Shown here in pieces: positions 27,104 to 51,350 of a stretch of 51,350 nt of DNA. Position numbers and translations under genes: made by a program. Source of the stretch: a virus; the IMG/VR virus record IMGVR_UViG_3300024308_000033, positions 1 to 51,350 of that record, one strand, 5' to 3'. The notes under the pieces were generated by a model. That model worked only from the letters and a program-made list of their open reading frames with translations. It searched no databases and had not been told where the DNA came from. Numbering within the stretch: the first letter of the stretch is position 1; every line of letters begins with the position of its first letter.

Positions 27104-27307
27104 ATGCGCCACAAGACTCAATTTGACGGCTGGTCCTCGGCAATGGAGCCGAGCTTTGTCACCTCTCCAACGCGTGTCGAGTACGTGTCATATGCGCAGA
27201 AGCAGCGCGACGCCGCCGAGCTTCACGACTTGGTGAAATCCCATATCGCACGTGGCGGCGCCTATGTGGTGCTGCCGTCGCACGCTGCTGCACAGGTGTC
27301 CGCATGA
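27104..27307 (+). CDS. Small hypothetical phage protein
   Basis: A 67-residue frame from ATG 27104 (MRHKTQFDGWSSAMEPSFVT); GTG 27101 directly before it is an alternative start. AAGGGAG lies 14 bases upstream, a loose fit. No domain is recognised. It is co-directional with the early operon and its end overlaps the upstream margin of the C4-type RNA region. Confidence 0.45.
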   Translation: MRHKTQFDGWSSAMEPSFVTSPTRVEYVSYAQKQRDAAELHDLVKSHIARGGAYVVLPSHAAAQVSA

Positions 27308-27354
27308 ACCTGTCCCCAGCTGCAACCAATCCGCACATTTCTACACAGTTCTAC

Positions 27355-27452
27355 TTGACTTCCCCAAGGACGGGGAGCAGGATTTGCCGCAAGGAGCGTA
27401 GAAACTCCGAGTCAACAGCGGTATCCGCGCCCGTCAGCATCGCGGTTTTTTT
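27355..27452 (+). ncRNA. C4-type antisense RNA with terminator
   Basis: The sequence folds as a closed multi-branch structure: closing stem TTGACT (27355-27360) / AGTCAA (27410-27415), hairpin TCCCC-AAGGAC-GGGGA (27361-27376), and hairpin GGAG-CGTAGAAA-CTCC (27393-27408). A terminator follows: CCGCG (27425-27429) / CGCGG (27441-27445) with seven T. This plan is that of C4 antisense RNAs known from P1/P7 and many prophages. All 18 bases of CTGTTGACCGGTTTCTAC at 27541-27558, downstream, can pair with 27398-27418 if two small bulges are allowed. That is the sort of target expected of such an RNA. Confidence 0.75.
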
Positions 27453-27540
27453 GCGCCTGCTTTTCGTGCGCACCGACGCTTTCCTGCGTCGGGAGGGCGG
27501 CAGCTATACAACACCCGCAAGGGGAAAACTGCCCGCCGGA

Positions 27541-27633
27541 CTGTTGACCGGTTTCTACCCTCCCGACACCCTCGGTGCGTCGCGTAGAAACGTCTCGCCG
27601 AGGTTTCCAATCTCGTCAACAGGAGACGTCTCC
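27541..27633 (+). promoter_or_regulatory. C4 target and structured leader of the downstream gene
   Basis: CTGTTGAC (27541-27548) and TTTCTAC (27552-27558) can pair with the C4 RNA. They can also pair, nested, with GTAGAAA (27584-27590) and GTCAACAG (27615-27622) in the same leader. The last of these overlaps the ribosome-binding site AGGAGA (27621-27626) of the gene at 27634. The C4 pairing and the internal fold exclude each other. The stretch from 27453 to 27540 is translatable in the frame of the downstream gene and encodes SYTTPARGKLPAG, which I associate with Ash/Icd-like peptides of such loci. Confidence 0.55.
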
Positions 27634-27876
27634 GTGCCTCACGGTGCCCCTTCCACGCCCGGCAACCCTGCTGCGCGTCAGCTTGCCCTCGCCTTCGGCC
27701 TGATCGCCGACACCCTCGAATGGCCCCACGATGCGTATCAGGCGTTCATTACCCGCCTGCTCGCCGTCGGTGTGTGCCCGCTCGCAGTCACCCTGGGCGA
27801 CGTGCTTGCCGCCTACAACGCCACCTGTGACGCCAACGGCCACGCGCCGGGCACCGACGACAAGGCGGTGCACTGA
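27634..27876 (+). CDS. Hypothetical protein under C4-region control
   Basis: An 80-residue protein from GTG 27634, seven bases after AGGAGA. A compact helical segment runs LALAFGLIADTLEWPHDAYQ ... LLAVGVCPLAVTLGDVLAAY. No family is recognised. The same frame is open back to 27304 through the leader, so an upstream overlapping peptide could be fused to it in frame; I prefer the GTG because of its ribosome-binding site. The stop overlaps the next start (TGATG). Confidence 0.55.
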   Translation: MPHGAPSTPGNPAARQLALAFGLIADTLEWPHDAYQAFITRLLAVGVCPLAVTLGDVLAAYNATCDANGHAPGTDDKAVH

Positions 27877-28184
27877 TGGCGCCCCCTTCCAACGTCACCA
27901 TTCCAGAGCCTTGCCTGCACCCGGTCATCCTGCTGGAAACGCAGATCCCCGGCTTCGGCCTGCGCGCGTCCTTCGACCAGCACAAGATTCTGTTTCTGGC
28001 CTTGGTACACATCGAGTCGGACACCGCAGCGACGTTCACCGCGCATCACTCACGCAATGTGCTGCGGACTGCTACCGGGGGAATCCAGATCGGAACCGTC
28101 GTCTACCTGCTCGCCAAGGGTGAGGCCGAGCGCTTCTTCCAGTGGCTGCGCACAGGCGAGAGCTACCCCGGCGGGGTGAACTGA
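27876..28184 (+). CDS. Hypothetical phage protein
   Basis: A 102-residue protein, translationally coupled to its neighbours at both ends by TGATG overlaps. It has an alternating beta pattern (HKILFLALVHIESDTAATFT) and ends ERFFQWLRTGESYPGGVN. It has no membrane segment or metal motif. I do not recognise it. Its place in the pre-primase cluster suggests an early function. Confidence 0.6.
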   Translation: MAPPSNVTIPEPCLHPVILLETQIPGFGLRASFDQHKILFLALVHIESDTAATFTAHHSRNVLRTATGGIQIGTVVYLLAKGEAERFFQWLRTGESYPGGVN

Positions 28185-28429
28185 TGGCCAGCAACAACGG
28201 GCATACGCCTGCGCTGCCCGGTCCAGTGGATCGCGGCGACCAGGTCATCAGCCTTGCCGACTATCTGCGCCTGTGCCGAATCGCAGCTGCAGCCGAGCTG
28301 CTGGCCAAGCTGCCCAGCGAGGCCGCAAAGATGCTTGAAATCGAAGCCGATCACACCTCTGCCGTAGCGAAGTACATGGCCGAAGACCTCGCCGCGATTC
28401 TCGGCCGGTCCCGCCCCGCAGTCGAGTAA
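28184..28429 (+). CDS. Hypothetical phage protein
   Basis: An 81-residue protein from ATG 28184, overlapping the previous stop. It is largely helical: DYLRLCRIAAAAELLAKLPS and MLEIEADHTSAVAKYMAEDL. No family recognised. The upstream in-frame ATG at 28142 lies within the previous gene and lacks support. Confidence 0.55.
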   Translation: MASNNGHTPALPGPVDRGDQVISLADYLRLCRIAAAAELLAKLPSEAAKMLEIEADHTSAVAKYMAEDLAAILGRSRPAVE

Positions 28430-28487
28430 CACCCCACCCCCGTCCCGGCAGCGCGCCAACGCGGCCGGGATTGGTCAGGAGAGAACC

Positions 28488-28532
28488 ATGCAACACCACC
28501 GCACCGCCGCGCACGCGGCGAACGAAGGCTGA
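28488..28532 (+). CDS. Short leader peptide before the primase gene
   Basis: A 14-codon frame (MQHHRTAAHAANEG) with a strong ribosome-binding site, AGGAGAGAACC, just before its ATG. It ends six bases before the primase ATG, which has only a weak GAAGG of its own. This suggests termination-reinitiation. The 21 bases around its start (28475-28495) recur exactly at the start of the gene at 31315. Confidence 0.4.
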   Translation: MQHHRTAAHAANEG

Positions 28533-28538
28533 GCCGCC

Positions 28539-31229
28539 ATGCAAGAAGAGATCCGCCAACAGGTACTGACGCGCGTCCAGCGCGACTATGGCCTCAAGCA
28601 CCGCAGCGGCGCCCCGTACATGCGCGGGGGCAAGTGCCCCCACTGCGGCAAGAAGGAGCTATACACCAGCTACCAGAAGCCTTGGGTTCTGCGCTGCGGC
28701 CGACAGGCCAAGTGCGGCCAAGAGGTGCGCGTGCGCGACCTCTACGACGACCTGTTCGACGACTACTCCAAGACCAACCCACAGACGCCGCAGGCGCCGC
28801 ATGCCGCAGCCGACGCGTACCTGGCCACCGCCCGCGGATTCAGCGTCAAGCCGTTGAAGGGTCTCTACACCCAAGAGGACTACTACGACCGCGCGAAGCG
28901 CCAGGGCACGGCCACTGTCCGCTTCCCGCTGGTGAAAGGAGGCTGGTGGGAACGTCTGATCGACCGGCCCCACCGGTTCGGCAAGATGAAGGCCCGGTTT
29001 GCGCCGGGCGAGAGCTACGCTGGGGTATGGTGGGGCGCGGCCGCTCAGGACCAACTGCGCACCTCCCGCGAAGTCTGGATCGTGGAGGGCATCTTCGACG
29101 CCATTGCTCTCCTGCAGCGCGGCATCTGCGCCGTTGCGGCCATGTCGAGCAACGCCTATCCCGAGCAATCCCTCAAGGAACTGAAAGCCGCGCGACCGGG
29201 CGATCTGCCGGTGCTGGTGTGGGGATTGGACAACGAGCCGGGCGCCCGCGCCTACACCATCAAGCACGCGCGCCGGGCGGAGAAGCTGGGCTATCGGTGC
29301 ATGGCTGCGCAGATCGAGCAGGTAGGCGACAAGAAAACCGACTGGAACGATCTGCTCTTGCGCGCACAGGCGGCAGAGGACGGCGACGCACAGTGGCAGG
29401 CTGACCTCGACCTGGCACGCCACAATGGCGCCGTGCTGATGGCGCGCACGGCCGTGGATAAGGGGCTGGTCATCTATCAGCGCGAGCAGAAGACCGAGTT
29501 CCACATCGAGTTCGCCTCGCGCCTGTTCTGGTTCGAGTTCGACGCGGTGCGCTTCGACAAGATGATGCGGGAAAAGAACCCCGATGACGAAGAGGGAGCG
29601 GTCAGCGAAGAGACCGAAGCCAAGATCCGGCGCGCCTGTGCTTCGGTGCAGCAGATCGCCAACTGCTACCCCGAAGCCCTCTACTTCCAACGCCACGAAG
29701 CTACCGACGAAAGCTGGTACTACTTCCGTGTTGACTTCCCCCACGACGCACCGTCGGTCAAAGGCACCTTCACCGGCGCTCAGGTGGCCAGCGCTACCGA
29801 GTTCAAGAAGCGAATCATCAGCCTTGCGCAGGGCGCCGTGTTCAGCGGCAGCGGCCAGCAGCTGGACCGGATGATGGAAGACCAGCTGTTCAACATCAAA
29901 AAGGTCGATACGGTCGATTTCGTCGGCTACAGCCCTGACCACAAGGCGTACATCTTCCCCGACCTGGCCGTGCGTGCCGGCGAGGTGACCCTCGCTAATG
30001 CCGAGGACTATTTCGAGTTCAACAAGCTGCGCATCAAAACCACACAGCGGTCGATCCGGATGGACATTCAGCGTGACCACGAGCAGTACACCAGCCAGTG
30101 GCTTGAATGGCTATGGATGTGCTTCGGCACGCATGGGGTTGTGGCCCTGACGTTCTGGTTTGGCTCGCTGTTCGCGAACCAGATCCGCAGCGCGCACAAG
30201 TCCTTCCCATTCTTGGAGGCTACGGGCGAGGCCGGCGCCGGCAAGACCACACTGCTCAACTTCCTGTGGAAGCTGCTGGCCCGCGCCGACCATGAGGGCT
30301 TCGACCCTGCCAAGTCGACCAAGGCCGGCCGCGCTCGCGCCATGGGCCAGATTTCCGGCATGCCCATCGTGCTGCTGGAAGCCGACCGCAGTGATAGCAA
30401 CGACAAGGCACACGCCAAATCGTTCGAGTGGGACGAACTGAAGGACTACTACGGCGGCGGCACCCTGGCCACACGCGGCGTGCGCAACGGCGGCAACGAA
30501 ACCTACGAACCGCCGTTCCAAGGAACCATCGTCATCAGCCAGAATGCGCCCGTTGATGGCAGCGAAGCCATCCTGACGCGCATCGTGAAGCTGCATTTCA
30601 AGAAGCCGACCGCGACGACCGAGAGCCGGCAGGCCGCCGACAACCTCAATGCATTGCCGGTCGAGAAGCTGAGCTACTTCCTGCTGGCCGCGCTCAAAGC
30701 GGAAACCGCAGTGATGGAGAAGTTCGCCGAGCGCGTGCGCTTCTACGAAGCCAGGTTGCGCGAGGAAAAGGAGCTGCGTGTCGAGCGCATCATCAAGAAC
30801 CATGCCCAGATGCTCGCACTTCTTGATGCACTGCGGCTGGTGGTGAACCTGCCGGAGCACATGGTGCGCGACACGCGGGACGCCTTGGTCAAGATGGCTA
30901 CCGAACGCCAGGATGCCATCGGCGCTGACCACCGCATCGTCTCCGAGTTCTGGGATGCGTTCGAGTACATCGAGATGCAGGCCACTGGCGACAAGCGCAG
31001 CGTGCTGAACCATTCGCGCGAAGAAAGCCGTATCGCCATCAACCTCAACGAGTTCATTCAGAAGGCCGGCTACTTCGGTCAGCAGGTGCCCGACATTGGC
31101 GACCTGCGACGGCTGCTGGTCGAGTCGAAGCGCCACAAGTTCATCAGCGCCAATACAGCCGTGAACAGCGCGATCCGTTCCACCCAAACGACCAGCACAA
31201 CCGTGAAGTGCTGGGTGTTCCAGAAGTAA
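28539..31229 (+). CDS. Phage primase-helicase with TOPRIM and SF3-type ATPase
   Basis: An 896-residue replication protein. A CHC2-like zinc finger is at C33/C36 and C53/C59 (GKCPHCGKKE, RCGRQAKCG). A TOPRIM-type region follows near residue 183 (VWIVEGIFDAIALLQRGICA, then VLVWGLDNEPGARAY). The helicase half has Walker A GEAGAGKTT at residues 563-571 and Walker B MPIVLLEADRSD near 607. It would prime and unwind at the phage origin, similar to P4 alpha-type fusions rather than the P2 A nickase. A P2-type rolling-circle A gene is absent from the window, so replication probably differs from P2. Confidence 0.85.
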   Translation: MQEEIRQQVLTRVQRDYGLKHRSGAPYMRGGKCPHCGKKELYTSYQKPWVLRCGRQAKCGQEVRVRDLYDDLFDDYSKTNPQTPQAPHAAADAYLATARGFSVKPLKGLYTQEDYYDRAKRQGTATVRFPLVKGGWWERLIDRPHRFGKMKARFAPGESYAGVWWGAAAQDQLRTSREVWIVEGIFDAIALLQRGICAVAAMSSNAYPEQSLKELKAARPGDLPVLVWGLDNEPGARAYTIKHARRAEKLGYRCMAAQIEQVGDKKTDWNDLLLRAQAAEDGDAQWQADLDLARHNGAVLMARTAVDKGLVIYQREQKTEFHIEFASRLFWFEFDAVRFDKMMREKNPDDEEGAVSEETEAKIRRACASVQQIANCYPEALYFQRHEATDESWYYFRVDFPHDAPSVKGTFTGAQVASATEFKKRIISLAQGAVFSGSGQQLDRMMEDQLFNIKKVDTVDFVGYSPDHKAYIFPDLAVRAGEVTLANAEDYFEFNKLRIKTTQRSIRMDIQRDHEQYTSQWLEWLWMCFGTHGVVALTFWFGSLFANQIRSAHKSFPFLEATGEAGAGKTTLLNFLWKLLARADHEGFDPAKSTKAGRARAMGQISGMPIVLLEADRSDSNDKAHAKSFEWDELKDYYGGGTLATRGVRNGGNETYEPPFQGTIVISQNAPVDGSEAILTRIVKLHFKKPTATTESRQAADNLNALPVEKLSYFLLAALKAETAVMEKFAERVRFYEARLREEKELRVERIIKNHAQMLALLDALRLVVNLPEHMVRDTRDALVKMATERQDAIGADHRIVSEFWDAFEYIEMQATGDKRSVLNHSREESRIAINLNEFIQKAGYFGQQVPDIGDLRRLLVESKRHKFISANTAVNSAIRSTQTTSTTVKCWVFQK

Positions 31230-34270: not shown

Positions 34271-34489
34271 ATGGCGCAGATCCTGCACTTCACAGACCTG
34301 CAGCGGATCTGCGCTCCCGACGGCCCACCCCCAAGGGCCGTCACAGTCCGCCGCTGGGCAGACAGGGAAGGCATCCGTTACAAGTACGACCGCCAAGGCG
34401 GGATCTGGACGACCCTCGACGCGGTGAACGCGGCGCTGGGGTTGATCGATCCGCAGCACGAAGACGTAAGGGAAGAGGACAACATCTGA
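34271..34489 (+). CDS. Excisionase-like small DNA-binding protein
   Basis: A 72-residue protein directly before the integrase; its stop shares a base with the integrase ATG. It has a winged-helix or MerR-like pattern: HFTDLQRICAPDGPPPRAVT and VRRWADREGIRYKYDRQGGI. Small proteins of this shape next to tyrosine integrases (the DUF4224-like group) often act as recombination directionality factors. The assignment rests on pattern and position. Confidence 0.6.
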   Translation: MAQILHFTDLQRICAPDGPPPRAVTVRRWADREGIRYKYDRQGGIWTTLDAVNAALGLIDPQHEDVREEDNI

Positions 34490-35676
34490 TGGCACGCGGC
34501 AGAAAGAGGAAGTTCAACCCCGACATTCCGGGGCACATCGAGCAGGACGCGCTGCCGCAAGGGATCTACTGGCACGACAACAGGTGGTACGTGCTTGAGG
34601 ATCACGCGGAGGGCGGCCGTCGCGTCAAGCGCACGGTCGCCCACGCGACTGCGCGATTGTCGGAGCTACATGCCATCGTGGAATCACTGGCCACCGGCCA
34701 GCAACGCGGGACAGTTCGCTATCTGTTCGATCGATTCCACGAATCCAGCGAGTTCAAGGAACTCTCACTGGACACCCAGGACGACTACAAGCGATACGCC
34801 GATAGCCTGGCCAACTACGTGCGCAAATGCGGAACCCCGTTTGGGCGCATGCAGGTGGACAGGATCACCACACCGGTGGTGCAGCGGCTGGTGGAGGTAT
34901 TCGCCAGGGGACGACCGGCCACTAAGACTCAGCCCGCACTGCCGGCGTTCCCCAGCAAAGCCAACCACCAGTTCCGCTACCTGCGCCGCACCTTGGCGTG
35001 GGGAGTCCGGCACGGCTACTGCAAGAGCAACCCAGCACAAGGCGTCAGACAGGCGAAGGAAGCACGCGAGCACAAGATGCCTACCCCAGATGCCTTCGCG
35101 AAGGTGCTTGCCTTCGCGCGTGAGCGTGGCGCCCTGCGCCCTCATACAAAGGGTAGCTGCCCGGCATACATCGCCCCGGCGATGGTGCTGGCCTTCAGTG
35201 CGCGCCTGCGCGGCATCGAGGTCTGCACCCTTACCGACGCCCACCGCCTGGACCATGGCGTACATGGCGAGCGGCGGAAGGGATCGCGCGCATCAGTCAC
35301 GGAATGGAACGAGGAGATGATCGAGGCATGGGAGGCGCTGGTCACTCGACGTAACGCGATCTGGAACCGCAAGGGTCGCAACTTCCCTGTGCCCATCAGG
35401 CCGGAGCAGCGCTTCCTCTTGGTGGAACAGACAGGCAACCCCATCGCCCGGTCTTCAATGTCCAGTGCCTGGCAACGCTTCATTCGCATGGCAATGAGCG
35501 AGGGAGTGATTGAGGAAGACGAGCGGTTCTCGATGCACGGTCTCAAGCACCGGGGCATTACCGACACCGAGGGCAACCGTGGCGACAAGCAGGACGCGGC
35601 CGGGCACAAATCACCGACCACGACGGGCCGCTACGATCACGATATGCCAATCGTGAAACCACCGCGCAAGCGCTGA
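34489..35676 (+). CDS. int: Tyrosine integrase of prophage 1
   Basis: A 395-residue site-specific recombinase. An N-terminal arm-binding region is followed by a core-binding SAM-like domain (about 70-170) and the catalytic domain. The catalytic Arg lies in SARLRGIEVCTLTD (near 240), the H-x-x-R box in HGLKHRGITD (near 350-356), a second His in AGHKSP (373), and the nucleophile Tyr382 in TGRYDHDM. It reads toward the att core 70 bases downstream, and arm-type repeats lie between. In P2 int sits beside the repressor; here it is at the opposite end of the early region. Confidence 0.93.
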   Translation: MARGRKRKFNPDIPGHIEQDALPQGIYWHDNRWYVLEDHAEGGRRVKRTVAHATARLSELHAIVESLATGQQRGTVRYLFDRFHESSEFKELSLDTQDDYKRYADSLANYVRKCGTPFGRMQVDRITTPVVQRLVEVFARGRPATKTQPALPAFPSKANHQFRYLRRTLAWGVRHGYCKSNPAQGVRQAKEAREHKMPTPDAFAKVLAFARERGALRPHTKGSCPAYIAPAMVLAFSARLRGIEVCTLTDAHRLDHGVHGERRKGSRASVTEWNEEMIEAWEALVTRRNAIWNRKGRNFPVPIRPEQRFLLVEQTGNPIARSSMSSAWQRFIRMAMSEGVIEEDERFSMHGLKHRGITDTEGNRGDKQDAAGHKSPTTTGRYDHDMPIVKPPRKR

Positions 35677-35745: not shown

Positions 35746-35792
35746 TGGTGGGCCCACCAGGATTCGAACCTGAAACCAAGGGATTATGAGGC
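35746..35792 (-). other. Att core at the junction of prophages 1 and 2
   Basis: This is a second copy of the tRNA(CAU) 3' half, differing from 443-489 by one base (CCTGA for CCTGG), which leaves a T-arm G-U pair. Again the bases to the right do not form a tRNA 5' half. A single integration would have left a complete tRNA here. The junction is therefore attR of prophage 1 and, at the same time, the left att of prophage 2. Confidence 0.8.
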
Positions 35793-35928
35793 CTCTATAG
35801 GTCTTCCATGCGCTTCCACAGGCATCCCGGCTTTAAGCTAAGTCTTTGATTTTCTCAGGTTGTGCGACCACCTGCGCCCATCATCGTCCACCTCTTTCCA
35901 CGGACAAACGGTCACCGAGCGGTCACCA

Positions 35929-37278
35929 ATGGGCGCATCAAAGGGAATGCTTACAACGAAGGGACTGGCCGCACTGCCGGTCGGCGAATGGGCCTCAGAT
36001 CCGGCGCCGCGCGGCGCGGGCTGCCTGGACGTCCGCAAGCTGGCCGGCGGGCAGCTGCGGTTCTACTACAGGTACACGAAGTCCAACGGCCAGCGCGACC
36101 GCCTGCTGATCGGCACCGGCCTGGCGCTGACCACAGCACGCGATGCGGCGGCGGGCTTGTCCCGGCGGTATCAGGCCGGCGATCGGGATTTGCGGGACGC
36201 GATCGCGGCCGAGGCAGCGGCGATGGACCGTGCGAAAGCCGAGGCCCTGGCCGAATCGACGCGGCGATCAGGCGCCACGTTGGGCGCTCTGATGACAGCC
36301 TATGCCCAAAGCTTGGAGGACGCCGGCAAGGTCTCTGCCGCTGCGACGCGCGCTTCCATCACGCGCCACATCGAGGATCCGTGGCCAGACCTCTGGGCGC
36401 GCCCGGCATCCGAGCTTGAGCTGGATGACCTGCTTCCGATCCTGTCGCGGCTTGTGCGCGCCAAGAAGCTCCGCGAAGGCGGCAAGATCCGGTCATACCT
36501 GCGTGCAGCGTATGCGGCGGCGATCGCAGCCAAGCAGGACGCGGCCGCCCCCGACGCTCTGCGCGTGCTCAACGTATCCAGAAACCCGGCGCGCGACTTG
36601 GCCACGCTCGACAGCGGTCAGCCGCGCGACCGGGTTCTTTCGGTGGCCGAGCTTCGTGCCTACTGGCGCAGGATCGAGAACCTGCCGGGACGACAGGGCG
36701 CCCTGCTGCGCTTCCACCTGCTGACCGGCGGGCAGCGCATTGCACAGCTGATGCGGCTGAAGTGGTCAGATCACGATCACGACACGGACACCGGTACCGG
36801 ATCCGTCCGCTTGCTCGACATCAAGGGGCGTCGTCGCGTGCCCCGTGTGCACCTGGTGCCGCTGCTCCCGGTGATGGCTGCGGATCTCGCCGTCCTGCGT
36901 GGCGATGATGACAGTGACGGCGGCGGCGCCAGACCGCACCTGTTCTCGCTCACCGCCGGTAAGGCGCCTGCCACCTATGACGAGTTCCGGGGAATCATGG
37001 ATCCGGTGGTGGCCAGCATGGTGGCCGCCGGCGAGCTGACAGCGCCGTTCACACCGGGCGACCTACGACGCACGGTGGAGACTCGGCTCGCTGCGCTGGG
37101 GCTATCGGAAGAAGTCCGTGGCCACCTGCAATCCCACGGCCTGAGCGGCGTCCAGAAGCGGCATTACAACTTCTTCGAGTACGACGCGGAGAAACGCGCT
37201 GCGGTGGAGGCCCTGTACGAACTGCTTTCCGGCGCCGGTGCGACGGTGGTGCCGATGCGCAAGGGCCTGAGCCGCTAG
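35929..37278 (+). CDS. int: Tyrosine integrase of prophage 2
   Basis: About 449 residues from ATG 35929; ATG 35947 (MLTTKGLAALPVGEW) is the other candidate, and the frame is open to 35860. The N-terminal part resembles the DUF4102-type arm-binding domain (YYRYTKSNGQRDRLLIGTGL). The catalytic Arg is in TGGQRIAQLMRLKW, the second Arg in GDLRRTVETRL (where relatives usually have HDLRRT), His in LQSHGLSG, and the likely nucleophile Tyr413 in KRHYNFF. It reads away from the att core. Two CGGTCACC repeats (35909-35927) abut the start codon. Confidence 0.9.
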   Translation: MGASKGMLTTKGLAALPVGEWASDPAPRGAGCLDVRKLAGGQLRFYYRYTKSNGQRDRLLIGTGLALTTARDAAAGLSRRYQAGDRDLRDAIAAEAAAMDRAKAEALAESTRRSGATLGALMTAYAQSLEDAGKVSAAATRASITRHIEDPWPDLWARPASELELDDLLPILSRLVRAKKLREGGKIRSYLRAAYAAAIAAKQDAAAPDALRVLNVSRNPARDLATLDSGQPRDRVLSVAELRAYWRRIENLPGRQGALLRFHLLTGGQRIAQLMRLKWSDHDHDTDTGTGSVRLLDIKGRRRVPRVHLVPLLPVMAADLAVLRGDDDSDGGGARPHLFSLTAGKAPATYDEFRGIMDPVVASMVAAGELTAPFTPGDLRRTVETRLAALGLSEEVRGHLQSHGLSGVQKRHYNFFEYDAEKRAAVEALYELLSGAGATVVPMRKGLSR

Positions 37279-37594
37279 AACGGTAGGTCCTCGGGCAGAT
37301 CCAAGCCTACCAAGCGGCCTGCGGCGCGTTGATGGCTGCTGGCCGTAGCACGCAGACGTTGCGCGCTCTGCCGGCGGCGCGCGCGGCAACGCCAACTTCC
37401 AGAGGTATCTCGTTCGAGGTCCGACGCCTGCTGCAGCTTGGCCGCCGCCTTGGCCTCCAATGAGGCCGGGTCCTTTTGCCAGTTCGCCATCGCTGCAGGA
37501 TGCCCGCTGAGCGTCGCGCAGTTCGCGACTGCCGCGGCGCCTGGACCTCTCTGCGGAACGCGTTCAGGAATTCGAGGGCGACGATCACGGCCAT
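37275..37594 (-). pseudogene. Possible frameshifted small gene opposite umuD
   Basis: The frame from ATG 37594 begins plausibly (MAVIVALEFLNAFRREVQAP) and starts four bases from the LexA-type box. Then it turns into Arg/Ser-rich noise. The next frame over reads well from the middle (AAVANCATLSGHPAAMANWQ, LEAKAAAKLQQASDLERD) and ends GRLVGLDLPEDLPF. A one-base shift near 37520-37545 would join them. Either the gene is broken, or I am joining unrelated frames. The region from 37279 to 37597 holds nothing else I can support. Confidence 0.35.
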
Positions 37595-37597
37595 AAA

Positions 37598-37612
37598 TTA
37601 GTAATTGTACTA
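37598..37612 (+). promoter_or_regulatory. LexA-type SOS box
   Basis: The sequence TTAG-TAATTG-TACTA fits the TTAG-N6-TACTA form that I recall for LexA of Xanthomonas and relatives. It lies 51 bases before the umuD ATG and next to the divergent frame on the other strand. It predicts DNA-damage induction of umuDC. Confidence 0.7.
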
Positions 37613-37662
37613 ACATGCGCCCCGTCTCGACCCGTGAGACATGCCGCTACCAGAGTACGCCC

Positions 37663-38145
37663 ATGCAGTCCCTTCCCTACTCACACACGCTGGCCCGCCC
37701 CATCGGCCCGGCCATGATCGATGGCCCGGCGCAGTTCGTGCCCCTTGCCGCAGCGCGCGCGCGGCTTGGCTTCCCTTCGCCGGCCGACGACTTCATGGAC
37801 GATGCGATCGACCTGCATCGCCTGCTGGTGCGCAATCCCGCCGCCACATTCCTGTACCGCGCCGATGGCTGGTCCATGAGCGGCGCCGGCGTCAGCGACG
37901 GGGACATCCTGGTGGTCGACCGGTCCGTAACCCCCCAGGCCGGGGACCTGGTCATTGCCATCTGGGACGGGAACCAGCCCACCTGCAAGGTGCTTCAGCT
38001 CTTTGAAAGCCACATGGAGCTGCACTCGGCCAATCCGGACTTCCCCCCCATCGTGCTGGAGCAATCCACCGAAGTGGAAGTGTTCGCTGTCGTTGGAGTC
38101 GTCCGCCAGATCAAACGCCGGAGCGGTCGTGTTCGGGCTCGTTGA
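37663..38145 (+). CDS. umuD: UmuD-like S24 peptidase, polymerase V subunit
   Basis: A 160-residue protein from ATG 37663. RLGFPSPADDFMDDAIDLHR holds the self-cleavage site; the bond before Gly36 is preceded by Leu35, where E. coli UmuD has Cys. The catalytic Ser71 is in DGWSMSGAG and Lys109 in TCKVLQL. Cleaved UmuD' forms DNA polymerase V with UmuC for translesion synthesis. Earlier in-frame ATG at 37615 would add 16 residues not seen in the family. Its end overlaps umuC by 17 bases. Confidence 0.92.
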   Translation: MQSLPYSHTLARPIGPAMIDGPAQFVPLAAARARLGFPSPADDFMDDAIDLHRLLVRNPAATFLYRADGWSMSGAGVSDGDILVVDRSVTPQAGDLVIAIWDGNQPTCKVLQLFESHMELHSANPDFPPIVLEQSTEVEVFAVVGVVRQIKRRSGRVRAR

Positions 38146-39379
38146 CGGCAACAACTTCTACGCCAGCTGCGAGCGCGTGTTCCAGCCGGGCCTTCGCGGC
38201 GTTCCGCTGGTGGTGCTGAGCAACAACGACGGCTGCGCGATCGCGCGCTCGGCCGAGGCCAAGGCGCTCGGCATCAAGATGGGCCAGCCCGCTCACGAAC
38301 TGAAGCACCTAGTGCGCCGGCATGGCCTCCAGATGCGCTCGGCCAACTTCGGGCTCTATGGAGACATGAGCGCCCGGGTCGTGAGCGTTCTACGGGAGGC
38401 CGCGCCGCGGGTCGAGGTCTACAGCATCGATGAGAGCTTCATCGACCTGGACGGAATTCGGGATCGCGAGCGGTTCGCGCGGGATCTGCGCCAACGTGTG
38501 CACCGGTGGACCGGCATACCGAATTGCATCGGCATTGGCCCCACGAAGACTCTGGCCAAGTTGGCCAACAAGGTGGCCAAGGGTGCTGACGGCGTGATCG
38601 ACCTCGGCAATGCGTCCTACCGGGACACAGTGCTGCGGACATTCACGGTCGGTGATCTATGGGGCGTCGGGCGCCGGCTGGCACCGCGGTTGGAATCCAT
38701 GGGCATCAGCACCGCGGCAGCATTACGCGACGCTCCGGCGGACGACATCCTGGCCACCTTCGGGGTCACATTGGCACGCACCCAGCGCGAGCTTCAGGGA
38801 CACGCGTGCATGGAGCTGGAGGAAGTCGAGCCGGATCGGCAGCAGATCATGGTGAGCCGATCCTTCGCGGACCGGGTGGAAGACCATGATGCGGTGGCTC
38901 AGGCGCTGGCTACCTTTGCCATCAGGGCCTGCGAGAAGCTCCGCGCGCGCGGCTTGGTTGCCGCTGGCGTCTGGGTGTTCGCGCAGTCCGACGTGTTTCG
39001 GCCAGAGCTCCGGCAGCACAACGCCAGCAGGACCGTGGGCCTGCCCGCGTCGACGGCAGACACCACGGTGGTGCTGGCCGTCGTGCGCAAGATGCTCCGC
39101 GGCCTGCTCCGCGACGGGATCGGATACAAGAAGGCAGGCGTGGCGCTGCTCGACCTAGCCCGGCCGGATGAGCTGCAGGCGGATCTCTTCGGGCCGACGG
39201 TGGTCGGCAATGACACGCTGATGGCCACCATGGACCGCATCAATCAGAAGTTCGGGCGCGGCACGGCCGGCCTTGGCGCATCAGGCTGGCAGGCACGGCC
39301 AGCCTGGGGAATGCGGCAGCACATGCTCTCGCCCAACTACACCACTTCCATCGATGAGATACCACAAGTTCGCTGCTGA
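38129..39379 (+). CDS. umuC: UmuC-like Y-family DNA polymerase
   Basis: A 416-residue translesion polymerase. I chose GTG 38129 because GGAG lies six bases upstream and the protein then starts at the conserved FGLVDGNNFYASCERVF. The catalytic acidic site SIDESFIDLDG lies near residues 96-106. The helix-hairpin-helix region follows (TKTLAKLANKVAK, VGDLWGVGRRLAPRLESMGI). The C-terminal little-finger domain is complete. A prophage-borne umuDC raises mutagenesis and survival after damage. Confidence 0.93.
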   Translation: MFGLVDGNNFYASCERVFQPGLRGVPLVVLSNNDGCAIARSAEAKALGIKMGQPAHELKHLVRRHGLQMRSANFGLYGDMSARVVSVLREAAPRVEVYSIDESFIDLDGIRDRERFARDLRQRVHRWTGIPNCIGIGPTKTLAKLANKVAKGADGVIDLGNASYRDTVLRTFTVGDLWGVGRRLAPRLESMGISTAAALRDAPADDILATFGVTLARTQRELQGHACMELEEVEPDRQQIMVSRSFADRVEDHDAVAQALATFAIRACEKLRARGLVAAGVWVFAQSDVFRPELRQHNASRTVGLPASTADTTVVLAVVRKMLRGLLRDGIGYKKAGVALLDLARPDELQADLFGPTVVGNDTLMATMDRINQKFGRGTAGLGASGWQARPAWGMRQHMLSPNYTTSIDEIPQVRC

Positions 39380-39425
39380 CCGCCGACCAAGTTACGCAAG
39401 CATCAGCTAGCAGCACCGCGGGTCG

Positions 39426-40106
39426 TCAGCCTTGCGCCCGCTTCGCTGCAGGATCGAGAAGACGACGAACCTCTTCGGGGGATAGCACAGGAAATTCGGG
39501 CGCAGGCCAAACCGTTTTCGCCAAGAAGATACCCACTACGCTTTTCACATTGGGAAGGCCGATCAGGAGCCGCTTTGCGGCTGCGAAAGAAGCCCCCATC
39601 GTGATTACGTCGTCAACCACAATGATGTTCTGGGCCAAGGGCGGGCTCAGGAACTTGGGGTCCACAGCCAAAGTCTCACAGAGCTCATCTGGCGTAAGGC
39701 GGTGACCATGATGCTGCGCGTCCCGCTCTACGGTCTGAACCAATAGTGGCCTGATATCTACCTTCGGCGCGCCCACAGCCATGCGCTTAAGCACCCTGAG
39801 CATTCGATCGTCAAACTCGGCGTGTCCTGCCGGCTTGGATCCAGGCATTGGCACAAAGGTGTGCGAACCAATGGTTTTACTAAGGTCGATGACGCTTTCT
39901 AGCGCTCGACCCCAATACTCAATCGCCTGCTTCTTGTAGTAGAGCTGACCCTCACTCACGGTCGGCTTCTTCTTCAAGTTCAGAATTTGCTGATTGGTGT
40001 CACTGGCTTGGTAGCCGCCTTCACTTGTGTATTCCCCATAGTGAAAGCACTGGTCGCCAGTTTCTAAGTAAGTGTAGTTCTTCGGTTCAAGGGTCTGCAG
40101 GCGCAT
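39426..40106 (-). CDS. Phosphoribosyltransferase-like protein, ShosT-like
   Basis: A 226-residue protein with a type I phosphoribosyltransferase PRPP loop, NIIVVDDVITMGASFAAAKR, in the C-terminal half. It resembles ComF-type proteins but lacks their cysteine finger. The previous gene is DprA-like and overlaps it by 20 bases. A phosphoribosyltransferase with a DprA homologue is the make-up of the ShosTA anti-phage system, in which ShosT is toxic and ShosA restrains it. Base composition is visibly lower in GC than the flanking phage genes, a sign of recent transfer. The family match is from domain pairing, not a search. Confidence 0.7.
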   Translation of the reverse strand: MRLQTLEPKNYTYLETGDQCFHYGEYTSEGGYQASDTNQQILNLKKKPTVSEGQLYYKKQAIEYWGRALESVIDLSKTIGSHTFVPMPGSKPAGHAEFDDRMLRVLKRMAVGAPKVDIRPLLVQTVERDAQHHGHRLTPDELCETLAVDPKFLSPPLAQNIIVVDDVITMGASFAAAKRLLIGLPNVKSVVGIFLAKTVWPAPEFPVLSPEEVRRLLDPAAKRAQG

Positions 40107-41025
40107 AACTACCCAGAGCTTCCATGATCTCGGTCACATTACGAACGCGGATGGCGCCTTGCGCCTCATATTTCTTGGGCCAGCTCAAATCTTCTCGTCG
40201 GAAACAGTTGTCCAAAATGAATAGCTTCCTTCCTTGGGCGAGGGCAGCTCTCGCTTGGACCAGAGTTCCAGAGGTGTTCCCAGCCTCGACGATGATGGTT
40301 GCCTCCGTCAGAGCAGACATTGTCACGTTACGTGCAGGGAAGAACAGGCTGTTCGCCTTGTAGTGTTGCTGCTTGTAGCGCAAGAAAGGCACCTGCGATA
40401 TCACCAAGTGATCTTTGGCCAAACTCTCTTGCAGAGCGGCGTTCTCGCGCGGGTAGTAGTCAAAGAGCGGTGTCCCAATGACAGCGATGGTTCGGCCACC
40501 TGCCTCCAGCGCCCCGGCGTGGGCGGCGGAGTCAATACCACGTGCCAGACCTGAAACCACCGTGAAACCGTGCTTCACTAACGCGATAGCGATGCGACGA
40601 GCATTGGCCGCTCCCTCCGGAGAGGGATTGCGCGTGCCGACGACGGCGACGCCACGCGTATCGACCAGCTCCCAATCTCCTCTGTAATAGAGAAGCTCAA
40701 TCGGGTGATCTGCCTCTCGGAGCTTGGCCGGGTACTCACCGGCGCCATGGACGCGGACCCCGACCTCCTTCAGACGATCAGCTCCAACCTCCTCGAGGAG
40801 CCGCTTCCACGTGTCCCGCACTTCCAGTTTGGACACCAACTCTGACGGCACCCGGCCAGGGTTTTCGGCGAACAGTTGCGCAATGTTCTTGAACCAAGCA
40901 CCTTGCCCCAGCCACAACGACTCATAAGCCGCCATCTCGCGACGGAGCTCGATCGGTGGAGCCGAAAAAATTGAATAGTCAGAGACTTGGTTCATCTCAG
41001 GCTGCTGTGAGCACTCTACAAGCAT
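40087..41025 (-). CDS. DprA-like Rossmann-fold protein, ShosA-like
   Basis: A 312-residue protein. ATG 41025 has GAGG five bases upstream; an in-frame TTG at 41040 is less likely. The DprA/Smf core is clear: RGVAVVGTRNPSPEGAANAR, VVSGLARGIDSAAHAGALEA, and GRTIAVIGTPLFDYYPRENA. True DprA loads RecA on incoming single-stranded DNA in transformation; this copy sits in a prophage and is coupled to a phosphoribosyltransferase, so a defence role (ShosA-like antitoxin) is more likely. Low GC, like its partner. Confidence 0.75.
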   Translation of the reverse strand: MLVECSQQPEMNQVSDYSIFSAPPIELRREMAAYESLWLGQGAWFKNIAQLFAENPGRVPSELVSKLEVRDTWKRLLEEVGADRLKEVGVRVHGAGEYPAKLREADHPIELLYYRGDWELVDTRGVAVVGTRNPSPEGAANARRIAIALVKHGFTVVSGLARGIDSAAHAGALEAGGRTIAVIGTPLFDYYPRENAALQESLAKDHLVISQVPFLRYKQQHYKANSLFFPARNVTMSALTEATIIVEAGNTSGTLVQARAALAQGRKLFILDNCFRREDLSWPKKYEAQGAIRVRNVTEIMEALGSYAPADP

Positions 41026-41328
41026 AGATTCCTCACCCAAACGTCCAGTGTGCAGGGGGAACGACGGGCCCAGTACGGCCGGCCTGATATGTTACCCCTT
41101 CTGCGTCGATGTCACCTGAAGGGCTCAATGCAGGCGGAAGGCCGTCATAGCCAGATATGACACGAACACCGTTGGCGGGCAAGGCGCTGCCGGTAGAGGC
41201 GCCGGCGTGGCGCTGCTCACGCGCCCCCGGGTTGAGCTGCCTGCGGCCCCGGATCCGGCAAGGTCAGGATGCCTTTTCGGGCAGGTCTCCGCTATCGGGC
41301 AAACACCCACTGACGTTCGGGGTTCTCC
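41026..41328. other. Intergenic region upstream of the DprA-like gene
   Basis: About 300 bases with no gene I can support. It must hold the promoter of the leftward DprA-like/phosphoribosyltransferase pair and the end of the upstream transcript, but I see no strong -35/-10 pair and no clear terminator. The composition changes within it, from AT-richer near 41026-41160 to GC-rich toward 41300, marking the edge of the transferred pair. Confidence 0.4.
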
Positions 41329-42261
41329 CTATGCGGCCAGCTTGTGCTCGTAGAACGGGTGTCGCTTGTCGTCAAAGATCCGATAGAGCGTGGCCAGGTC
41401 GCCCGGATCCGGGTTGAGCCAGGCATCCACATGCTCGGGTTTGATGTTGATGATGGTCCGGTCGTGGCCGGCGGCGGCCACCTCGGGCTCCGGGTCGTCG
41501 GTGATGGCGGCGAACGACAGCAGATCCGGCTCCTTGCCGGCCGGATCCTTCCAGTGCGACCACAGGCACGCTACCAGCATGGGCTCGCCAGTGCGCGGCG
41601 TGAACTGCACCACCTGGTTCTTCCCGTCCGGCCCCTCGACGTTTTCATAGAACGTGTCCACCACCATCAGCCCGTGGGTGTGGCCAAAGGCCGGTGCCCA
41701 GAACTTCTCCAGGCTGTCGCGACGGGCGTTGTAGGTACCGGGGAAGCGTTGGTCATAGTTGGCCGGCTTTCCAGCCAGGCGGCACTGGTAGCGCATCGGC
41801 TTGATGACCAGCTTCCCGCCCTCGGAGACGATCACCGGGGCATATACGCCTGGGAAGATACGGCTATCGCGGTCCTTCGGCTCGGTGCGCTTCAGGTCGG
41901 CCAGCTTGGCCAGGGCCCGCTCGATCTTATTGCCGGCGATCCGAACATCTTCCCGGGCCTTCTTGGTTTCCTTCACCTGCAACGCGCGCTCGGCGTCGGC
42001 CAAGCGCTTGCGGTTGGCAAACAGCTCCTGCTCCAGTACCGCGGCCTCGGCTCGGTTCCACTGCTCCACCTCAGCCCACACCGCCAGCTCCGCCGGGCTC
42101 GCGCCGGCCCGGAAGGCGTCGTCCATCGCCTTCGGGGTCTTGGGCCGCTTCTTGCCCGGGTCGTGGGCGTAGAGAGCGGCGAACTCCTGCAGCGACAGCG
42201 TGGCGCCGGTCATCCGGACCAGCTTCTGATAGGCGGCGGTGATCTGGGCGGAATAGCACAT
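41329..42261 (-). CDS. SOS response-associated (HMCES/YedK-type) protein with an inserted helical region
   Basis: A 310-residue protein. The start is fixed by the catalytic Cys2: MCYSAQ at ATG 42261; the frame opens ten codons earlier. The family residues follow: YNARRDSLE (the NAR motif), HGLMVVDTFYENVE (catalytic Glu) and GHDRTIINIKPEH (His). HMCES proteins form a covalent link to abasic sites in single-stranded DNA and shield them. The usual length is near 220 residues; here about 90 extra, mostly charged helical residues are inserted after the N terminus (about 55-125). No ribosome-binding site is clear. Confidence 0.85.
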   Translation of the reverse strand: MCYSAQITAAYQKLVRMTGATLSLQEFAALYAHDPGKKRPKTPKAMDDAFRAGASPAELAVWAEVEQWNRAEAAVLEQELFANRKRLADAERALQVKETKKAREDVRIAGNKIERALAKLADLKRTEPKDRDSRIFPGVYAPVIVSEGGKLVIKPMRYQCRLAGKPANYDQRFPGTYNARRDSLEKFWAPAFGHTHGLMVVDTFYENVEGPDGKNQVVQFTPRTGEPMLVACLWSHWKDPAGKEPDLLSFAAITDDPEPEVAAAGHDRTIINIKPEHVDAWLNPDPGDLATLYRIFDDKRHPFYEHKLAA

Positions 42262-42309
42262 GGGCGCAATCTGACACGCCCCGACGTTCATTCGTCGTGA
42301 CGCTGCGGC

Positions 42310-42996
42310 TCAGTGGCCGGTCACGTCGATCAGTACGAAGTGGCCGGATGCGCTGAACTGCGTAGCGTTGTCGGACTGGGGGATCAAAGCGGCAGCGCCG
42401 GCGTAGTAGAAGCGCCCCGAACTTCCCCCACCGGTCCCATCCCCCTGCGGCCCGGTCAGGCGGAAGCCCACGCCACGCTCAATCCGCTGACACGAACGAG
42501 ACGAGATCACCGCGTAGCGCCGACCAGCCGGGACCTGCATGTAGGCGCCCTCTGCCGCCCCGAACGGGGCAGTTGTCACGCCTACGATGCGAAGGGGCTT
42601 TGCCCAGGAAGCGAAAGCCAGCTCGCCGGTGTGCTCTCGGTAGACCTCGATCCCGGTCTTGCCCGGCGTTCCAGTCACAACCGAGTCGTATACCCACACC
42701 GTGCCGAACACAATCGATGAGCCCGTGTAGGCCGACACTCGCCAGTTGTTGCCGCCGAGGTTGGTCAGAATCACGCTGAGCCCGAAGTTGTTGTTCGGAC
42801 CGGTGACCGCAACTATGGGGCTCTTGGCTTGGAACTCCCGCGTGACGTATCGGGTTACGACAATGCCCGATACCTGGTAGGCAACTGCTCCCGTCTCGTT
42901 GAAATCCCACTTGTGGCGCAGATGGAAGTTGAGCAGATCGCTTCGGACCTGCACCGTCCCGTACGGGGTGTATGCCTCAAACCCTCCGACCAGCAT
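42310..42996 (-). CDS. Hypothetical tail-associated protein after J
   Basis: A 228-residue protein from ATG 42996, one base beyond the stop of the preceding gene. It is beta-rich (YGTVQVRSDLLNFHLRHKWD, GNNWRVSAYTGSSIVFGTVW) with Gly-rich turns near the C terminus. Small structural proteins of this kind commonly follow J in siphophages and may bind the tail tip or receptor. No family recognised with certainty. Confidence 0.6.
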   Translation of the reverse strand: MLVGGFEAYTPYGTVQVRSDLLNFHLRHKWDFNETGAVAYQVSGIVVTRYVTREFQAKSPIVAVTGPNNNFGLSVILTNLGGNNWRVSAYTGSSIVFGTVWVYDSVVTGTPGKTGIEVYREHTGELAFASWAKPLRIVGVTTAPFGAAEGAYMQVPAGRRYAVISSRSCQRIERGVGFRLTGPQGDGTGGGSSGRFYYAGAAALIPQSDNATQFSASGHFVLIDVTGH

Positions 42997-42997
42997 T

Positions 42998-43297
42998 TCA
43001 ATGCACCCCGTAAAGAACAGTTGCCGGGACCAGGGTAAAGACCGGCTGCCCATTGCCATCCACATCCGTGCCCCAGTACACACGGCCATCTGAGTACCAA
43101 ACGGTCGGCGTGCGGCCAGGCTGCGCAGGCGGAGGCACCACGTAGAAGAAGAAGTCCCCTGGTGGCAGCGGCCCTACCCAAGTCGAATTGCCGTGCACGG
43201 CGTCGGTCTGAACCGTGCCGATGAACAGCCCCAGGCGGGTCGTGTAATCAATCTCCAGCGACCCATCGAGATTGAAGGTCTGGATGCCCGCAGGCAT
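42998..43297 (-). CDS. Small tail-associated protein (DUF6453-like?)
   Basis: A 99-residue protein from ATG 43297 with GAGGAG shortly upstream. It begins MPAGIQTFNLDGSLEIDYTT and is beta-rich, with YVVPPPAQPGRTPTVWYSDG. The pattern of describing a line of oriented strands after J is familiar from siphophage minor tail proteins. The DUF label is only a guess. Confidence 0.6.
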   Translation of the reverse strand: MPAGIQTFNLDGSLEIDYTTRLGLFIGTVQTDAVHGNSTWVGPLPPGDFFFYVVPPPAQPGRTPTVWYSDGRVYWGTDVDGNGQPVFTLVPATVLYGVH

Positions 43298-43322
43298 GCG
43301 CTCTACTCCTCTATTGATTGAC

Positions 43323-43350
43323 GGGAGGACGTTTGCCCCTCCCGCCTTTT
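43323..43350 (+). terminator. Hairpin between J and the downstream tail genes
   Basis: GGGAGG (43323-43328) and CCTCCC (43338-43343) form a stem, and TTTT follows on the plus strand. Tail genes run on the minus strand, where no T run follows, so in that transcript it is only a hairpin that may modulate expression or protect an RNA end. Confidence 0.4.
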
Positions 43351-43352
43351 CG

Positions 43353-46300
43353 CTATTGCCACCAGCCCATGCGCGTGGCCAGCTGCCCATTCGGGTAGAA
43401 GCAACGCCAGTGACCGTCGCTGTACTCGGTGCGCTGCCCCCCATTACCAGGGGCGGAGACACGGAACACATCGGCCACTACGTCGAACGACGAAATCGCA
43501 CCGTTACTCGCCAGCTGGATGCCGCCGATCTTCCCGTCAGCACGAACGTTCACACCCCAGTTAGCGTTCGCTTCAAGGCCACCCGCGTTCCATGCAGGCG
43601 GGGCAGTCGCCCCCTCTGCCACCTGACTGAACATCGGCCGGAACATCCACCAGTACGGAGCCTGTAGGCCACCAACACCTCGCAGGAAGACACGAACTCG
43701 GGCGAAGGTAGCTTCTGGCGGTGCCTTTCCGAACACATAGGTTCGCGGAATGGCGTCCAAGCCCCACGACGCGTTGCCACCGTTCGCGGGGGACCAACCG
43801 CTGTAGGCGCTGCCCCGGTGGTTGCCACCACGATCATAGAATGCAATCTCGATCTGGCTATCACACCGATGCGTCTGAAGCCACACGCTGAAACAGTACG
43901 TGCGGTTTGGAAGTACGGCGGTGTCGTAGGTCGTGGATGTCGATGACACCTGACCGGCCGCCATGCCGCCCTTCGCTACTGCTCCTAGGCCAAACACACC
44001 CTGGGGGTTCCAGTCGCCGCCACCTGTCGGGTTGCCGAGTTCATTCCACCAATTGTCGGGGTTTGTCGTCCACTCCCAACCGTTCCTTGACCAGAACGGG
44101 AACGTGGAGTTCTGCAGAAGGTTGCCAGACTCTCCAAGGTTCTTGATGCTGGTTCCCATCTCCACCACCACAGCCGCATCGGCCTTTTCTCCCAGTGAGG
44201 TCTGGATGCCCGTGATCTGCTGTGCTTGCGCCGCCTGCGTTTGCCCCTGCTGCGTGACCTGGGTCTTCAGCTGGTTGAAGCCGCTGGCCGACACATCACC
44301 CACCTGCGTCTTCAGGCTCACCAGGTCCTGCGCAGTCGCGTCCAGCTTGCTGCCCTGCTGGTTTACCTCCGTGGTGAGGCCTGCCGTTGCAGCAGCATTG
44401 GCGGTGATCTTGACCTCGTTGGTAATGTCGTAGAACTCGATCCGGTCAATCAGGACTCGGGCCGGGCCCGTAGACCCTGCACGGTTCGTCACCCAGACGT
44501 GGGACAGGACTTCCGTACGATCGTCACCGATGGGGTGCTCTAGCTGGAATCGCTGCCACTCTGTGGTCAGGTTCGGGGTTGTCTGGTCATTGTTGCCCTC
44601 ACCAGCCACCCCACCCGTACGCACACGGCAGCGAGCCGTGATCGACGCCGTGCCCGAGATTGCCCGAGCAACAACGACGGTGCGCATGCGGCGGCCGATG
44701 CCCGCCTTCATACCCGACCAACGATTGCCGTTGGCGAACAGACCTGGCGACTGGGTCGCGTTCTGTACCACGGTCACGTCTACCGCCGAGCCGATCTGCC
44801 CCGCACCGTTGGACCACACAATGTCACCACCGGTAGCGCCCGTGTTCGTCTTCACGAACGGGGCCATGCCGCCGTCGAAACCGGAATTGGTGTTGATGTT
44901 GTCGCCGCGGTTGAACGTGGTGGTGATGGTGGTATTTAGATCGGTGACCTGGCTTGCTGTGCTGACCAAGGTGTTCTCGGCGCTCGTTACCCTGGAGGCC
45001 AGCCCAGTGATGGCTTGCGCGTTCGCCTCCGAAGATTGCTGTGCACCATAGGCCTCAGTTACATCGGTGATGACAATGTCATCCAGCAGCAGAATCGACC
45101 CGATCACGCGTTGGGACTTGGGGTCGGTCGCGTGACCAGGGAGAGAAACGAACAAGCGCCCCTGTGCCGCAGACGCGTTGGTCGTCACATACCCGCTCAC
45201 CTTCGTCCACGAAGTTTTCGACAGGCTGGCAACACCCCAATTTACGGTGGTCCAAACATTGCTCGTGCCGCCCGCACCTGCGGAAGAGGTCTGGACACCG
45301 ATACGCAAGTTGCTCTTGTTGTCGGGCGGGATTTCAACGCTACCAGAGGAAAGTGCTGCCCACGCCTCGATGTACAGGCGCCGTACTCCGACGAGGGGAA
45401 TGAACTCGGTGACCGGATAGCAGTCCGCATTTAGATCAGGGCGTGCGTCAGACGGCACCTGAATCAACAGGCCACGATTTCCGTTGCGCTTTGCCGACGT
45501 GTTGACGGTGAACGTCGTGCCATAGCCTTGGGACAACACCTGGCCATCCGCGAACTGCTCAAACGACCCCGACGGGAACATGCCGCCGCCGCCAGCCAAG
45601 CTCGCCTTCATCTCCGACTGCAGCTTGGTGACACTGGTCGAGGTCGACTCAATCTTGCCCTCAGCGGTAGTCACCCGCGTGGTCAGGTTCTGCAACGCCG
45701 ATGCGTTGGCGTCGGTCCTTCCGGAAACGTTGGTCAGGTCGCTGCGAAGCGCCGTCAACAGCCCAGCCTGAGAGGTGATCGTCTCGCCCTGCTGCGTCAC
45801 TTTCGTGCTGAGGTCAGAAATTGCCTGGGCGTTCGCCAGCAGCTCGGTCACTTCCTCCAGCACAACATCGTCAACCCACAACGTACCCGCAGTGTTGTCG
45901 GCATAGATGCCTAACTGCAGCCCAGTGATCGACGTGTTGTCCGGTATCGCGTACACGGCACTGAGGTAGGTCCAGGCAGCTTTGTCCGCGACGAAGAACG
46001 TTGCACCCCCGATCAGCTCCCCGTTCTGGTTCGCCAGTCGCATTTTGCTGTTGCCTGACGTGCCATTGAAGTCTGGGGTGCTGCGATACCAGCAGCTATA
46101 GCGATACTTCTTGCCCGGGCTCGTCGAAATCGTGGTGCGGCCATTGGCATACGCAACCTTCTGCCGGATGGTCCCGGGATCGAAGCGCACGCACATGCCA
46201 CCTGCACGTCCCTCCGCCGCCGGCCAACTGGTGCCGGTTGCACCCGGGTCGTAGGTCCAGCCCACGTCCTTGCCCGCCTGCCACGAGCCGTTCAGGACCA

Positions 46301-51240: not shown

Positions 51241-51350
51241 CGCATGTACTCCACGACCGCATCCAGCCTGAAGTCGCCAGGTAGCTTCTCGTCAGGCACA
51301 AGATCACCAATGGCGCCATTCTCAAACCGAGCCTTGATCACCTTTCCAGT
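51237..51350 (-). CDS. C-terminal end of an upstream tail gene (partial)
   Basis: The last 37 codons are in the window (reading TGKVIKARFENGAIGDLVPD ... DAVVEYMR). The frame is open to the edge, and the stop overlaps the start of the DUF1833-like gene by ATGA, so it belongs to the same operon. Too little is visible to name it. Confidence 0.6.
   Translation of the reverse strand, partial: TGKVIKARFENGAIGDLVPDEKLPGDFRLDAVVEYMR

Follow-up and report, generated by a model that had tools for sequence, protein, structure and literature searches.

Our analysis of a stretch of viral DNA of 51,350 nucleotides (the window) indicates that positions 27355-27876 very probably form a leader-RNA switch of the kind represented by P1 C4, P4 CI RNA and Gifsy IsrK, built here around an antisense RNA of the sRNA-Xcc1 type and carried by a P2-like (Smp131-like) prophage. 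The parts and their order, the three-way co-variation of the pairing words, the covariation in the stems of the RNA and the overlap of one pairing word with a ribosome-binding site are established directly on the DNA. While switches of this kind are already known, what appears new, as far as the literature we read extends and with priority not certain, is that the sRNA-Xcc1 family provides the antisense RNA in many phages; our literature search on RF02221/Xcc1 together with C4 found no paper linking them, the 2011 sRNA-Xcc1 paper lying outside that scope. The internal competing fold, which a preceding sequence-only reading of the window had held to be new, is known from P1, P4 and Gifsy-1.

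The antisense RNA occupies positions 27488-27575 on the plus strand and matches the Rfam family RF02221 (sRNA-Xcc1) over its full length (1-87) with 77.7 bits (E 1.4e-12), above the gathering cut-off of 53 bits, and this is the one Rfam family found in the whole window. Its outer stem (27488-27497/27557-27566) encloses a left arm with the invariant core AUACAANACCCGNAAGGGGAA (27506-27526), which holds a GNAA-capped CCC/GGG hairpin, and a second hairpin. The C4 model proper (RF01695) reached 17.4 bits at 27488-27575 (E 1.1 in a 471-base search), short of its cut-off of 45, and gave nothing at 27355-27453; between 27250 and 27720 the c4-a1b1 model (RF03163) had no match and the isrK model (RF01394) none up to E 10, while the c4-2 model matched at none of the loci searched, a weak negative. 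The C4 identity suggested by the sequence-only reading thus holds for the type of system and fails for the family, which is RF02221 and not RF01695. Among the matches listed, all 40 of 40 divergent viral records passed the RF02221 cut-off, and 62 sequences show covariation in the outer stem and in hairpin 2: double-change cells number 131, shuffles giving 56, and 88% of the cells are paired, all slid controls being lower. In Xanthomonas, sRNA-Xcc1 is a stable 88-nt RNA mapped by RACE, the RACE and Northern evidence applying to Xanthomonas only (PMC2996969). Separately, positions 125-174 of the Methylosinus-1 RNA (RF03108) share the string ACCCGnAAGGGGAAAAC with window positions 27493-27534 (10.9 bits); judged by this likeness, that RNA and the left arm of the sRNA-Xcc1 family are possibly a related module.

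The RNA contains an 18-nt strand, CUGUUGAC-CG-GUUUCUAC (27541-27558), in which b' (CUGUUGAC, 27541-27548) comprises the loop of hairpin 2 with its adjoining closing bases and a' (GUUUCUAC, 27551-27558) is the joining strand. Upstream, within 27393-27418, a' and b' find their exact complements in a1 (GUAGAAAC, 27398-27405, in the loop of a GGAG/CUCC hairpin) and b1 (GUCAACAG, 27411-27418), and the same two words recur downstream as a2 (27584-27591) and b2 (27615-27622), again with exact pairing over 8+8 bases. Both the 18-base pairing and the alternative pairing with two segments further down had been seen beforehand and are borne out here; b2 runs into the AGGAG (27621-27625) of the GTG start at 27634, forming a combined b2 and Shine-Dalgarno element at 27615-27625. 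Since one strand matches both flanks, it can pair with either side, not both. Over the entire 51,350-base record the pair of words occurs twice on the plus strand (27398-27418 and 27584-27622) and a reversed control pattern not once. By calculation the a1b1 : a'b' duplex is stronger than a2b2 : a'b' (-24.0 vs -19.1), and an energy fold of the full leader pairs a'b' with a1b1 and leaves b2 mostly open. Folding with and without the RNAs in trans hardly changed the accessibility of b2 and the Shine-Dalgarno, by a method in which kissing and pseudoknot pairings are not representable.

Further support comes from the family as a whole. A pattern search with the core AUACAANACCCGNAAGGGGAA retrieved at least 120 viral stretches and at least 120 stretches of bacterial genomes, a set in which the core is invariant by construction, since it was the search pattern; nearly all of the core matches listed lie within a branched RNA of this kind. 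Each locus was parsed into stem, loop and joining strand, and its own flanks were compared with those of other loci. For 92 RNAs less than 80% alike, among the matches listed, the bipartite match averaged 13.3 in the own upstream flank against 2.0 in foreign ones, and 10.9 against 1.5 downstream; none of 2000 permutations reached the own-flank values on either side, more distant own flanks averaged 1.5, and the P1 positive control scored 14 and 15. The a1b1 element thus co-varies with its own RNA, and compensatory sets occur within the same clade as well, as when GTAGAAAC changes to GTAAGAAC, CTCAAAAC or CTAAGAAC. Among the homologous loci listed, the downstream loop complement as a rule ends in a Shine-Dalgarno-like sequence, and an open reading frame starts within 19 nt of b2 in 69 of 74. 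These 69 include Bro-N (10), Rha (8), KilA-N (7), P22_AR_N (4), AntA (4) and ORF6N (2) proteins, so that, by their sequences, the products encoded after b2 are mostly of anti-repressor types among the matches listed; in Aaphi23, Rac-SA53 and Bordetella IFTN1 the RNA immediately precedes ant, and both a1b1 and a2b2 are present.

A second sample was assembled without reference to the RNA, from 41 viral contigs fetched by the 80-aa protein encoded at 27634 alone, making 42 with the window. Both words stand in all three places in 38 of these 42 phages; of the four exceptions in this exact-word test, two come with an upstream sequence that is too short, and in the other two the b word alone is found. 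The 38 show 13 a/b combinations: eight a-words occur in free combination with three main b-words, and the gene that follows hardly differs. Such a pattern is as expected if the a and b words were exchangeable immunity specificities, by analogy with the known systems. True C4 elements were found elsewhere in 4 of 40 divergent records, never at the sRNA-Xcc1-type position (among the matches listed), and the c4-a1b1 model matched in the 40 relatives only near true C4 loci and at none of the sRNA-Xcc1 loci. One record, G186 (that of L108), carries one sRNA-Xcc1-type element alongside four C4 elements, each of the latter with c4-a1b1 nearby, which places several antisense switches in one phage.

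The upstream part of the leader supplies two further elements. We read 27355-27383 as a sigma-70-like promoter (-35 TTGACT at 27355-27360, a 17-nt spacer, -10 CAGGAT at 27378-27383), weak in the window but a feature of the family. Its -10 box is weak and a strict promoter scan of the window placed it below threshold, yet 76 homologous leaders, among the matches listed, averaged a promoter score of 8.3 out of 12 against 5.2 in shuffles, with a median distance from promoter to a1 of 42 nt. TTGAC is kept in every clade member with sequence that far upstream, while b1 varies. Behind b1 follows an intrinsic terminator (27418-27452; CCGCG 27425-27429, CGCGG 27441-27445, T7), beside which a competing GCGG/CCGC hairpin begins at the end of b1. 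Among the leaders listed, a terminator follows b1 in 58 of 76, against 2.7 expected in shuffles, and CGG follows it directly in 66 of 76. A short, IsrK-like transcript of some 64 nt is predicted to end at this terminator.

Downstream, the gene that would be controlled (27634-27876, GTG start, 80 aa) shows a third-codon-position excess of substitutions. Its product has matches in PHROG 17048/26166 only and none in a Pfam search, and is modelled as three helices at low confidence (AlphaFold mean pLDDT 65). The stop codon overlaps the next start as TGATG at 27876, and the genes at 27876-28184 and 28184-28429 and a DNA primase at 28539-31229 (PHROG 1139, E=0) follow on the plus strand; by their arrangement, 27634 and the genes from 27876 to 31229 are a probable single operon that would be co-transcribed. 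The small gene whose ribosome-binding site b2 overlaps is therefore coupled to the genes behind it, and where many relatives carry an anti-repressor the window has the 80-aa protein followed by the primase operon.

Set beside the known systems, the layout is closest to that of P1, whose record annotates a1 at 48255-48261, b1 at 48269-48276, C4 at 48343-48419, a2 at 48423-48429, b2 at 48452-48459 and icd from 48470, and in which Rfam finds C4, c4-a1b1 and a weak isrK. The window shares with the P1/P7 C4 system the order promoter-a1-b1-terminator-RNA-a2-b2-small gene at near-equal spacing, the use of the loop and the joining strand as pairing elements that match a1/b1 upstream and a2/b2 downstream, the placement of b2 next to the ribosome-binding site, a CGG and a terminator behind b1, and a branched RNA with RCC after its stem. 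It differs from C4 in the left-arm module, here the invariant AUACAANACCCGNAAGGGGAA with its GNAA loop, and in family, the score of 17.4 bits falling below the cut-off of 45 and the two families lying at different places even in one phage. With IsrK/orf45 (STnc1160)/anrP the proposed switch shares a short RNA ended by a terminator, a read-through leader, an RNA processed to about 80 nt, pairings that exclude each other and a downstream phage regulator, but the isrK model finds no match in its sequence. For Gifsy-1, experiments demonstrate read-through, processing of an approximately 80-nt RNA from the read-through transcript, trans-activation and a mutually exclusive two-state switch (PMC4825925). 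Like the P4 CI RNA, the antisense RNA here would be processed from a leader with target copies on both sides and lies ahead of replication genes, here a primase; this comparison draws on the summary in PMC4825925.

We hypothesize that the leader starts at the promoter at 27355-27383 and that part of transcription stops at the terminator at 27452, leaving a short a1b1 RNA, while read-through would give a leader containing the antisense RNA (27488-27575) together with the mRNA for 27634 and its downstream genes. Excision of the antisense RNA at the foot of its outer stem would follow, probably by RNase P, a processing step suggested by an RCC that comes behind this stem in 78 of 92 RNAs (45 expected, among the matches listed) and by the P1 literature (PMC5320573). 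Its loop b' and joining strand a' would then pair with b2 and a2, covering the Shine-Dalgarno of 27634, so that this gene, and the following ones by coupling, would be silenced in the service of immunity or lysogeny control; given the TGATG overlap and the genes that continue as far as the primase, such repression would shut off the replication operon. The a1b1 element, whether in the leader or as the short terminated RNA, would compete for a'b' and could relieve the repression, and the a and b words would set an exchangeable immunity specificity. The immunity reading for 27634 rests on analogy. The icd/ant genes of P1 and the alpha operon of P4 are silenced likewise.

Alternatives exist for the direction and the mode of regulation. 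It is possible, though we do not favour it, that the leader is closed by default and that the short a1b1 RNA opens translation of 27634 in trans, as in Gifsy-1, where IsrK raises anrP translation more than 100-fold (PMC4825925). The same elements are present in this leader and the calculated preference of a'b' for a1b1 over a2b2 agrees with such activation, whereas for the P1 system, which has this layout too, the annotation gives C4 as a repressor; an activation switch is compatible with the repression model and may add to it. Possible too, though we rate it slightly lower, is an output like that of P4, in which the RNA pairing with a1b1 and/or a2b2 would mainly stop transcription and not the ribosome. 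The stop could lie at the terminator behind b1 or beyond it, most leaders have the terminator and competing hairpin, and P4 CI RNA with seqA/seqC works by termination (as summarised in PMC4825925); against this, b2 lies over the Shine-Dalgarno throughout the family, as it does in P1, for which repression of icd/ant translation is annotated.

Far less probable is the assignment of roles made in the sequence-only reading, in which 27355-27453 is the antisense C4 RNA, a compact branched RNA with terminator, and 27488-27575 its target. A discrete terminated RNA would indeed arise from 27390-27453, it pairs with 27541-27558, and the homologous short RNA IsrK acts in trans (PMC4825925). The terminator of that proposal stands, but as a stand-alone RNA 27355-27453 was rejected: its folding is no better than that of shuffled sequences (z -0.61), and its closing stem TTGACT/AGTCAA is not conserved, the -35 box staying constant in relatives while the b1 side changes freely, to AGGATACAG or AAGTCAG for example. 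Stem covariation among relatives is found in 27488-27575 and not in that closing stem, 27355-27383 is promoter DNA, 27355-27453 has no RNA-family match, and the conserved, covarying branched RNA lies downstream. The roles are hence exchanged, with the supposed target being the antisense RNA and the upstream piece corresponding to a1b1, IsrK or seqA. As a working idea the two-state switch survives and comes close to the Gifsy-1 IsrK model with the labels exchanged (PMC4825925).

We also give almost no credence to a coding leader, that is, a 190-aa anti-repressor translated from ATG 27304 in frame through the RNA (Smp131 gp37, PHROG 17048): the frame 27304-27876 is open, its ATG overlaps the previous stop as ATGA and leader lengths in the close clade are multiples of three (330, 327 and 324 nt), but close-clade substitutions in the leader are mostly non-synonymous and spread evenly over codon positions (6,6,5; 17,21,15; 21,21,22), unlike the third-position excess in 27634-27876, relatives read the RNA core in a different frame so that the frame of the peptide shifts within the RNA, and in a group of relatives (L040, L066, L087 and L093) the leader frame is closed. 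Of the earlier proposal that the leader frame encodes SYTTPARGKLPAG as in Ash/Icd-like loci, the open frame is real and the conserved product is not: the search for one gave no Pfam match and no codon-position bias. On these substitution and frame patterns, SYTTPARGKLPAG (SYTTPARGK) arises by chance when the RNA core AUACAANACCCGNAAGGGGAA is translated, the leader is non-coding, and the gene starts at 27634. In phage Smp131, gp37 (NC_023588.1, 24168-24740) is annotated as a 190-aa 'anti-repressor' that spans the RNA leader; the true start is probably the homologue of window position 27634, which would correct a mis-started annotation.

Beyond phages, the integron sRNA-Xcc1 belongs to the same covariance-model family and shows the full a1-b1-terminator-RNA-a2-b2 layout. 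There a1 is UGAACAC and b1 CUCGAAG, followed by terminator, RNA, a2 (UGAACA) and b2 (CUCGAAGGA), the last standing just before symE (PF08845); in the cassettes examined (L244, L254-L256, L162) the RNA loop is complementary to the symE ribosome-binding site. In the window, by contrast, the RNA sits in a P2-like prophage before an unrelated 80-aa gene. The symE cassette was not found among the named plasmids searched. In Xanthomonas, 35 of 35 genomes searched carry RF02221 in 1-13 copies (L246-L253, L257-L282), and a chromosomal class of them keeps the promoter, the terminator and an a1b1 that co-varies with its own RNA; the a2b2 match is absent in 13 of 14 copies among the matches listed, and several copies are followed by small open reading frames of 85-98 aa. 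The 2011 paper on sRNA-Xcc1 reportedly describes, going by its title, a trans-acting RNA under HrpG/HrpX. We consider it likely that the whole sRNA-Xcc1 family is a large, hitherto unrecognised C4-type class of proteobacterial phages with mix-and-match specificities, in which the integron copy would act as a cis-operon antitoxin or repressor of SymE and the Xanthomonas orphans lack the downstream target. A 2025 paper places sRNA-Xcc1 upstream of symE and suggests a divergent mechanism, the passage concerned naming no target site (PMC12444791), and a Xylella study regards homologues as RNAs that travel in vesicles and have targets in the host (PMC12189769). For both observations a C4-type reading offers a simpler first hypothesis. 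Under it, an RNA family discussed as virulence or vesicle RNA would gain a function and a defined target, and sRNA-Xcc1 would join the immunity switches of P1, P4 and Gifsy. It predicts that the a/b words foretell which phages a lysogen excludes, and that sRNA-Xcc1 silences symE.

The element that hosts the switch is a Stenotrophomonas P2-like prophage. An imperfect direct repeat of about 47 bases, at approximately 443-490 and 35746-35793 of the window, resembles the 3' part of a tRNA gene, and its right-hand copy lies directly after an integrase (34489-35673); by position these repeats probably represent the att sites of a P2-like prophage of 35.3 kb. Beyond the right repeat (35800-51350) the window encodes a Y-family polymerase with DUF4113 (38279-39376) and, on the minus strand, a 2346-aa tail-tip J-like protein (43356-50393), and by this gene content the region is probably part of a second, lambda-like prophage.
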